From: an uncultured Clostridia bacterium
GTDB lineage: Bacteria > Bacillota > Clostridia > Christensenellales > Borkfalkiaceae
Direction: 5' to 3'
NCBI GenBank assembly: GCA_944362555.1
Contig: CALVTL010000010.1
Location: forward strand, 1 to 55,692
Length of the DNA stretch: 55,692 bases
This document shows, in pieces, positions 23,151 to 23,669 of the stretch. Below the pieces are notes generated by a model that saw nothing but the letters and a program-made list of their open reading frames with translations, ran no database searches and was not told the origin of the DNA. Each line of letters starts with the position of its first letter. Positions within the stretch are counted from its first letter, which is position 1. The translations under genes and the position numbers were made by a program.

Positions 23151-23246
23151 TTCCCCTCAAATTTTGCAGAACTTCGCGCGTGCGCGCGATAAGGCGTGCA
23201 AAATCTTGCGGGAACACTTGTTTTTCCCGCGCGGATGTGGTATCAT
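23151..23246 (+). repeat. 96-bp promoter repeat, copy 1
   Basis: Aligns without gaps to 23574-23669 at 92 of 96 positions (offset 423). Both copies contain ATTTTGC...GCAAAAT and GCGGGAA...TTCCCGC inverted repeats, the second overlapping the -35 box. Confidence 0.95.
23218..23246 (+). promoter_or_regulatory. sigma-A promoter of the small-ORF transcript
   Basis: TTGTTT (23218-23223), 17 bases, TATCAT (23241-23246). It is the first copy of the duplicated promoter; the -10 box is one base worse than in the mrnC copy. The predicted start is near 23253. Confidence 0.75.
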
Positions 23247-23300
23247 GATTGCAGGCAACAAGGGCGTTGCAGACAGGTGGTTAGCCTCTTGGGGGGAAAT

Positions 23301-23321
23301 ATGATGAGTATTTCCTTGTAA
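23301..23321 (+). CDS. Six-codon leader ORF (MMSISL)
   Basis: ATG 23301 follows GGGGGG by 4 bases and runs six codons to TAA at 23319. The stop overlaps the AAGGGGG ribosome binding site of the next small ORF, so translation of the leader could control it, as mok does for hok. The leader ATG also sits in a possible hairpin, GGAAATA/TATTTCC. Such a short frame can arise by chance. Confidence 0.4.
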   Translation: MMSISL

Positions 23322-23333
23322 GGGGGTGATTGT

Positions 23334-23438
23334 ATGAACGATGCGTTCGTGCGCCTGCTTCTCCGGTTGGTGGAGCTGGGCGCGATCCTCTCTTTCAGAG
23401 TGACGAAGGACAAAGTTTACATAATCATAAAAAAATAA
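23334..23438 (+). CDS. 34-residue small protein, candidate type I toxin
   Basis: The frame runs ATG 23334 to TAA 23436 and encodes 34 residues. It has a strong ribosome binding site, AAGGGGG, 8 to 9 bases upstream. Residues 5-21 form an amphipathic to hydrophobic segment (FVRLLLRLVELGAILSF), and the end is basic and beta-prone (KDKVYIIIKK). The stop codon lies inside the stem of a bidirectional terminator, and a consensus antisense promoter faces it from the other side. That layout, a short peptide with a convergent overlapping antisense RNA, is the layout of type I toxin-antitoxin loci such as Fst/RNAII and TxpA/RatA. I do not recognise the peptide as a member of a named toxin family, and toxicity is inference. 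Confidence 0.6.
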   Translation: MNDAFVRLLLRLVELGAILSFRVTKDKVYIIIKK

Positions 23439-23523
23439 CCGCCCCCATAGCCGGTAACTCTGACGGGCGGTTATTCGATCGCACGCGGGGCTGACCGCTG
23501 AATGGCAGCGCCCCTTAAGTTGC
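23430..23523 (-). ncRNA. Predicted antisense RNA opposite the small ORF 3' end
   Basis: Predicted from a consensus promoter (23558-23530) and a terminator with a U-rich tail on this strand. The RNA of about 90 bases would begin with a strong hairpin (GGGGCGCTG...CAGCG..GCCCC) and overlap the last codons and the 3' UTR of the small-ORF mRNA. Its ends are estimates. Confidence 0.55.
23434..23475. terminator. Bidirectional terminator shared by the small-ORF mRNA and antisense RNA
   Basis: Stem AATAACCGCCC (23434-23444)/GGGCGGTTATT (23465-23475). On the minus strand it is followed by TTTTTTTATG, a good U-tract; on the plus strand the tail is TTATTCG, a weaker one. Confidence 0.85.
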
Positions 23524-23529
23524 TCCTTT

Positions 23530-23558
23530 ATTTTATCACGCGTTTGATCATCTGTCAA
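23530..23558 (-). promoter_or_regulatory. sigma-A promoter of the antisense RNA
   Basis: Minus strand: TTGACA (23558-23553), 17 bases, TAAAAT (23535-23530). It is stronger than the promoter of the small-ORF mRNA, as expected for an antitoxin RNA. Confidence 0.8.
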
Positions 23559-23573
23559 CCGTTCCGCAGAAAA

Positions 23574-23669
23574 TTCCCTTCAAATTTTGCAGAACTTCGC
23601 GCGTGCGCGCGACAAGGCGCGCAAAATCTTGCGGGAACACTTGTTTTTCCCGCGCGGATGTGGTATAAT
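23574..23669 (+). repeat. 96-bp promoter repeat, copy 2
   Basis: Second copy of the repeat at 23151-23246. It provides the mrnC promoter, and the pair flank the small-ORF cassette as direct repeats. Confidence 0.95.
23641..23669 (+). promoter_or_regulatory. sigma-A promoter of the mrnC operon
   Basis: TTGTTT (23641-23646), 17 bases, TATAAT (23664-23669). The mrnC ATG is only 7 bases after the -10 box. Confidence 0.85.

Follow-up and report, generated by a model that had tools for sequence, protein, structure and literature searches.

A candidate type I toxin-antitoxin cassette of Clostridia with a recurrent RNA chassis and variable peptides

Introduction

What is the function of a 34-codon open reading frame (ORF) that lies between two convergent promoters? 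The question is raised by a cassette of ~340 bases (about 23218-23558) in a stretch of 55,692 nucleotides, hereafter the window, which constitutes contig 10 in an assembly of 1.8 Mb from the class Clostridia; we infer the host genus to be Candidatus Gallimonas. The cassette is situated between a minus-strand gene starting at about 23080, which we take from its translation to be an aldo/keto reductase gene, and a plus-strand gene running from about 23677, which by recognition of its translation is presumably mrnC, and it stands directly upstream of the latter. An earlier note on the window, made from its sequence without database searches, had read the locus as a type I toxin-antitoxin system laid out like Fst/RNAII and TxpA/RatA. 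Here we compare the cassette with its relatives in the genus, order and class, and weigh this reading against three others.

Results

Organization of the cassette

The layout of the cassette is the one that the earlier note had described (Table 1), and the same convergent layout was found at 47 loci within the genus, where a peptide gene and an antisense RNA gene stand in a fixed overlap, as is generally required of a type I system. The 34-codon ORF with its AAGGGGG site and the convergent promoter are present as proposed; the bidirectional terminator, with the ORF stop inside it, folds on both strands and was not listed by a simple terminator scan. Against dinucleotide shuffles, the predicted folds of the mRNA and of the antisense RNA have z-scores of -3.92 and -3.09, respectively, and these values, together with the conservation of the whole arrangement in other genomes, suggest that it is more than a product of chance.

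The proposed sense promoter was found as well, but it is weak and absent from the list of the promoter scan. Because its -35 element is supplied by the left copy of a direct repeat, it is the weakest in the 49 cassettes scored, and this weakness counts against the toxin-antitoxin reading. The sense promoters of most relatives are of the TTGACN-17/18-TATAAT-like form, and the antisense promoter reaches at least 9/12 in all 49 cassettes. Both RNAs start with a similar module, GCAAC followed by GCGGTTAGC and pyrimidines, whose GCAAC-like part was recognized with loose patterns in 44 of 49 sense leaders and in 49 of 49 antisense leaders; the scoring of promoters and modules left out L105, which has no leader match, and peptides of fewer than 32 residues.

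Table 1. Predicted features of the cassette and its flanks (window coordinates)
Feature	Position	Strand	Basis
Left copy of 96-base direct repeat (mrnC promoter region)	23151..23246	+	supplies sense promoter
Sense (candidate toxin) promoter TTGTTT-17-TATCAT, TG before -10	23218..23246	+	sequence; 8/12
mRNA 5' leader: GCAAC...GGTGGTTAGC module, then SD-sequestering hairpin	23253..23333	+	fold; relatives' leaders
SD-sequestering hairpin	stem 23285-23291 with 23319-23325; inner hairpin 23293-23317	+	fold
Six-codon leader ORF ATGATGAGTATTTCCTTG-TAA, inside SD hairpin	23301..23321	+	stop overlaps AAGGGGG
Shine-Dalgarno (SD) AAGGGGG	23320..23326	+	sequence; relatives AAGGGGG or AAGGAGG
34-codon ORF, candidate toxin peptide	23334..23438	+	ORF reading; purifying selection
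Predicted antisense (antitoxin) RNA, about 90 nt	23430..23523	-	fold; ends predicted
Bidirectional intrinsic terminator AATAACCGCCC...GGGCGGTTATT, contains ORF stop codon	23434..23475	both strands	folds; conserved
Antisense promoter TTGACA-17-TAAAAT	23530..23558	-	promoter scan; 11/12
Right copy of 96-base repeat, mrnC promoter region, outside cassette	23574..23669	+	

Flanking repeat and position upstream of mrnC

The cassette had been described as lying between duplicated promoters. It is indeed flanked by two copies of a 96-base direct repeat that are 96% identical, but by sequence comparison the duplication is a separate local event and not a part of the cassette; the relatives inspected have a single mrnC promoter at this site. 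Two matches, L008 and L010 (in G008 and G024), cover only the duplicated promoter stretch and were rejected as cassettes. The -10 regions of the cassette and of mrnC both hold GTGGTAT, and joining at this microhomology is therefore possible.

The position directly upstream of mrnC and the leader ORF, whose stop overlaps the SD, could point to a transcription attenuator or leader-peptide regulator of mrnC, a reading that we find scarcely credible. Homologous cassettes are located elsewhere in other genomes, and the mrnC genes of relatives lack such an element: in a sample with a match in 39 of 41 genomes, own included, from which 30 loci were given, all 29 other mrnC neighbourhoods were without the cassette according to the RNA model run on the fetched flanks (some contigs end early), and an assignment of the cassette to mrnC was rejected on these grounds. 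At 6 of the 10 mrnC loci inspected, the aldo/keto reductase gene adjoins and the interval is plainly empty. As for the six-codon leader ORF proposed in the earlier note, it is present and overlaps the AAGGGGG site as claimed, but it is not conserved; its stop is found at that place in only 5 of 17 members of peptide class A, the window included, so the ORF looks incidental, and its role as an attenuator was rejected.

The same absence from 29 of 29 neighbourhoods, the multiple dispersed copies and the 96-base duplication around the window copy would also fit a small mobile repeat, with the RNA and terminator as its conserved part and the ORF as a passenger. This we consider very unlikely, given the coding selection on the peptide (see below), the lack of any transposase-like gene recognized by eye in the neighbouring translations, and the rarity of exact flanking direct repeats of at least 16 bases, which were found in only 7 of the 50 cassettes tested, the window included (the maximum in a cross-locus control was 14), and thus provide no general insertion signature. 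The flanks of L116, L119 and L067 contain direct repeats of 22-45 bases, two of them with a CTCATyCTGAGCG-like stretch; these could be repeats that are dispersed in the genus and have no connection with the cassette.

Sequestration of the SD in the mRNA leader

The SD is paired in 55 of 57 leaders, including that of the window, when at least four of its five bases are required to pair with the pyrimidine tract, which sits just after the GCGGTTAGC-like module. An upstream partner of the SD was found in 54 of 56 real leaders, as compared with 598 of 1120 shuffled ones. Among relatives, the SD alternates between AAGGGGG and AAGGAGG and the partner tract between CCCC and CTCC, and the two tend to change together: at columns 12 and 59 of 46 leaders, the pair is C-G in 22 cases, U-A in 12, U-G in 6 and something else in the other 6. 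In the count of SD-stem pairs, 12 cells are changed on both sides, against 6.5 in shuffles, a value reached by 1 of 500, and this covariation is that of a single column pair, with the register shifted in some members. A partner slid by one column is equally good on two measures (92.8% vs 92.0% paired; score 0.197 vs 0.181), partly owing to class B, in which the pairing is displaced by one base. Taken locus by locus, an SD helix of at least six pairs is possible in 42 of the 46 leaders. As judged from their sequences, L091 and L092 (both in G030) are a natural compensatory pair: their peptides are very similar, and the SD (GGAGG/GGGGG), the leader tract and the antisense tract differ together. 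The folds and the comparison thus give the cassette a predicted 5' stem-loop sequestering the SD of the candidate toxin, which is a feature of the Fst/par systems.

The peptide

The earlier note had made its reading dependent on conservation of the 34-codon frame in relatives. The frame is conserved, and in each of four peptide classes sequence comparison shows purifying selection on it: pairwise pN/pS values in frame are 0.34 in class A (17 sequences), 0.43 in B (9), 0.34 in C (6) and 0.52 in D (12; 0.51 over full length), whereas the two other frames give 0.77-2.01. The cassettes of relatives encode peptides of 32-38 residues, with a VTKxxxxxxIKK-like C-terminal tail in classes A and B and mostly an EYIAIKRxKK tail in classes C and D. 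Peak hydropathy over 15 residues is 1.83 for the window peptide, about 1.15-2.19 in classes A, B and C, and 0.30-1.30 in class D; the class D values are unlike those of membrane-spanning type I toxins and speak against a toxin. Helix, strand and amphipathy of the peptides were judged by eye.

The earlier note was unable to place the 34-residue peptide, and it has no family match in Pfam, NCBIfam or PHROGs in our searches either (query P0001). P0001 and three relatives did not match Pfam Hol_Tox (PF16935), and the peptide has neither an NCBIfam match to an Fst-type toxin nor any proline, so it lacks the PXXXG motif. Phage origin was rejected, as P0001 was unmatched in phage records and A3 in viral contigs. 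PDB profile matches were also set aside, being mostly to designed helical repeats; the eight best contain no stretch that passes alone, and two others are weak. No description of the peptides or their RNA chassis was recognized in the literature searched, which was thin in subscription papers.

The purifying selection, the lack of a match to any toxin family and, in class D, the lack of a clear membrane helix by hydropathy would be compatible with an antisense-regulated small protein in a useful, non-toxic role, for example as a membrane or cell-surface regulator, the level of which is tuned by the RNA pair. The distribution of the family and the pattern of its loss make this role unlikely, as described in the following sections, and favour a toxin-antitoxin pair.

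Distribution of the family

A DNA search of 61 genomes gave matches in 10, all of the same genus and own genome included. With the peptide profile, the family was found in 14 of 101 genus genomes (two of these through weak partial matches only) and in 7 of 200 genomes of the order (three through weak partial matches). This patchy presence in the genus, the several cassette copies in some of its genomes and the absence of the cassette from the other mrnC neighbourhoods all argue against a non-toxic regulator. At L118 (G068:C8:9200-10900), two cassettes of different peptide classes are placed about 200 bases apart in opposite orientation.

The covariance model of the antisense gene had matches in 29 of 101 genus genomes, 12 of 200 genomes of the order (8 of 102 genera) and 42 of 391 genomes of the class (26 of 222 genera), where the order and class samples include genus members and the weakest matches (e.g. 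L077, L078 and L084) were counted uninspected. The class matches of the RNA model mostly encode other short hydrophobic peptides. Of 27 loci fetched from elsewhere in the class, 23 have a short ORF that ends at the terminator, with an identical offset in 22, and none of the 10 such peptides tested scored above cut-off in Pfam or NCBIfam. Peak hydropathy of the chassis peptides of G219, G185 and G131 is 2.54-3.05. In G219, four RNA-model loci encode peptides reading MVTYE... or MVTYA..., and both of the two sequences tested pass the Pfam Hol_Tox cut-off of 23.3 bits (31.9 and 24.5 bits). NCBIfam matches of the G219 peptides, to PepG1 and ComI, are both below cut-offs, the weak similarity of one peptide to the type I toxin PepG1 having an E value of 2e-6, under the curated cut-off. 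The Hol_Tox link depends on this one genome, since a search for the family in 121 genomes of the order gave weak matches in three and none over the cut-off. In Rfam at a relaxed threshold, only matches far below gathering scores were obtained, and RatA was not among them.

Pairing of the two RNAs

The mRNA and the antisense RNA are perfectly complementary only at the terminator; elsewhere complementarity is imperfect. Pairing with the SD, the spacer and the start codon is possible through the 5' module of the antisense RNA (plus strand 23487-23503 and beyond), and the predicted duplex with the start region of the window has an energy of -21.2 kcal/mol (z -2.03). In a fixed register, 8.0 of 12 positions of the start region pair with the antisense RNA, versus 3.3-6.9 in the 17 other registers tried, and over 14 positions 9.1 pair; the mean z of start-region pairing against shuffled antisense RNAs is only -0.68. 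Antisense RNAs swapped between loci pair equally well by count (the observed value was attained in 2078 of 3000 permutations) and only slightly worse by energy (92 of 5000), a result that counts against this pairing and indicates that the start-region site is generic; permutation across loci detected no locus-specific covariation of this pairing. RNA specificity, if any, must lie outside the start site, perhaps in the terminator loop.

One-sided loss of the peptide gene

The 62 antisense-gene matches classed in the 101 genus genomes (E up to 2.6e-7; 8 weaker ones were left out) comprise 47 with an intact peptide gene, 14 orphans and one match cut by a contig end; a peptide gene was taken as intact if it had an SD and its ORF, of 26-45 codons, ended at the terminator. 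At the orphan loci, three of which stand in one array in G111, the antisense gene is intact and the peptide is either gone or reduced to its final part. Every one of the 48 peptide genes has an antisense gene (21 full-length genes of class A or B and 27 of class C or D, one of the latter cut by a contig end). Most partial peptide matches outside the 48 are remnants at orphan loci, and weak partial matches without an antisense match were seen in G018 (with a stop), G012 and G011:C2. The contrast of 14 orphans among 62 antisense genes with no lone gene among 48 peptide genes is the pattern that a toxin-antidote pair predicts, as read from peptide profiles built from cassettes having the antisense gene and from loci of which many were found through a model that includes the antisense promoter; this scoring would also count as present any antisense gene inactivated by a point mutation. 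Loss of the peptide with retention of the antisense gene is a further argument against a non-toxic small protein. In the G111 array, L113 (G111:C12:800-5400), four antisense genes are found within about 3.2 kb, three of them without a peptide gene, as tandem orphan candidate antitoxins.

Discussion

The comparison of sequences supports the type I toxin-antitoxin reading of the earlier note, and we consider it probable that the cassette is a type I toxin-antitoxin system of a diverse kind found across Clostridia. In such a system, the sense RNA, about 230 nt, would encode a small basic peptide whose synthesis would harm the cell or slow it down. As folding and comparison suggest, the fresh mRNA would be poorly translated, with its SD folded by the leader into a stem. 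The convergent near-consensus promoter would make an antisense RNA of about 90 nt which, judging from the complementarity and the published par/Fst mechanism, may make its first contact with the mRNA in the terminator hairpin before covering the start site. On loss or silencing of the cassette, the antisense RNA would be the first to disappear, and synthesis of the peptide would follow; under this proposed run-out of the antidote, the antisense gene could survive alone and the peptide gene would not be found alone.

In our judgement, the cassette would work like par/Fst. This system (RNA I/RNA II) of the Enterococcus plasmid pAD1 possesses convergent promoters, a bidirectional terminator, a peptide of about 33 residues, an SD hidden in a 5' stem-loop and, through direct repeats, a second complementary site at the translation start, and Fst-type toxins have a hydrophobic domain with PXXXG and a charged tail (PMC7472228). 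The cassette likewise contains convergent promoters with a bidirectional terminator, a peptide of similar size, and an SD in a 5' stem-loop, and a second complementarity at the start site is possible. Unlike par/Fst, its peptide is unrelated by the profiles searched and has no PXXXG, its candidate second site pairs imperfectly, and a common GCAAC...GCGGTTAGC-like module is found in the 5' parts of both its RNAs. TxpA/RatA and BsrG/SR4 of Bacillus subtilis pair at the 3' ends and have a sequestered ribosome binding site, as do the cassette RNAs, yet their complementary stretch is 100-140 bp, whereas that of the cassette is about 40-50 by its predicted ends (PMC6562991); unlike TxpA/RatA, the cassette has no RatA match in Rfam. 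The CD-RCd modules of Clostridioides difficile, compared by description only, are similar to the cassette in that the gene of a small toxin and that of an antisense RNA converge, again in Clostridia; their toxins have 50-53 residues and their complementary region is long (PMC6563280). The similarity to Hol_Tox (PF16935), PepG1 and ComI lies in the RNA chassis, which is the same for the G219 Hol_Tox peptides, whereas the 34-residue peptides are not matched by the Hol_Tox profile and have lower peak hydropathy. The likeness to Fst/RNAII and TxpA/RatA drawn in the earlier note holds for the layout and does not extend to the peptide or to RatA: by the tests made here, the cassette is outside Fst, Hol_Tox and TxpA/RatA, with an RNA chassis common to the Hol_Tox peptides.

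More tentatively, and with doubts that we would not understate, we propose that the heritable unit in Clostridia may be the RNA chassis and not the peptide. One conserved convergent RNA pair sharing a 5' module (GCAAC...GCGGTTAGC-pyrimidines), which would act as a cis anti-SD in the mRNA and as a trans anti-start in the antitoxin, could carry many unrelated peptides, some of them amphipathic and helix-plus-strand-like rather than membrane-spanning, and so maybe directed at a new target; loose RNA specificity could let one antitoxin, even an orphan one, cover several toxins. The orphan antitoxins suggest anti-addiction or cross-silencing. For gut Clostridia, the cassettes would offer a family of RNA-controlled peptides that is open to testing, conserved in its regulatory RNA and variable in its peptides. 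The divergence of their peptides makes type I toxins difficult to detect, and the antisense chassis may serve as a handle for finding them through the RNA.
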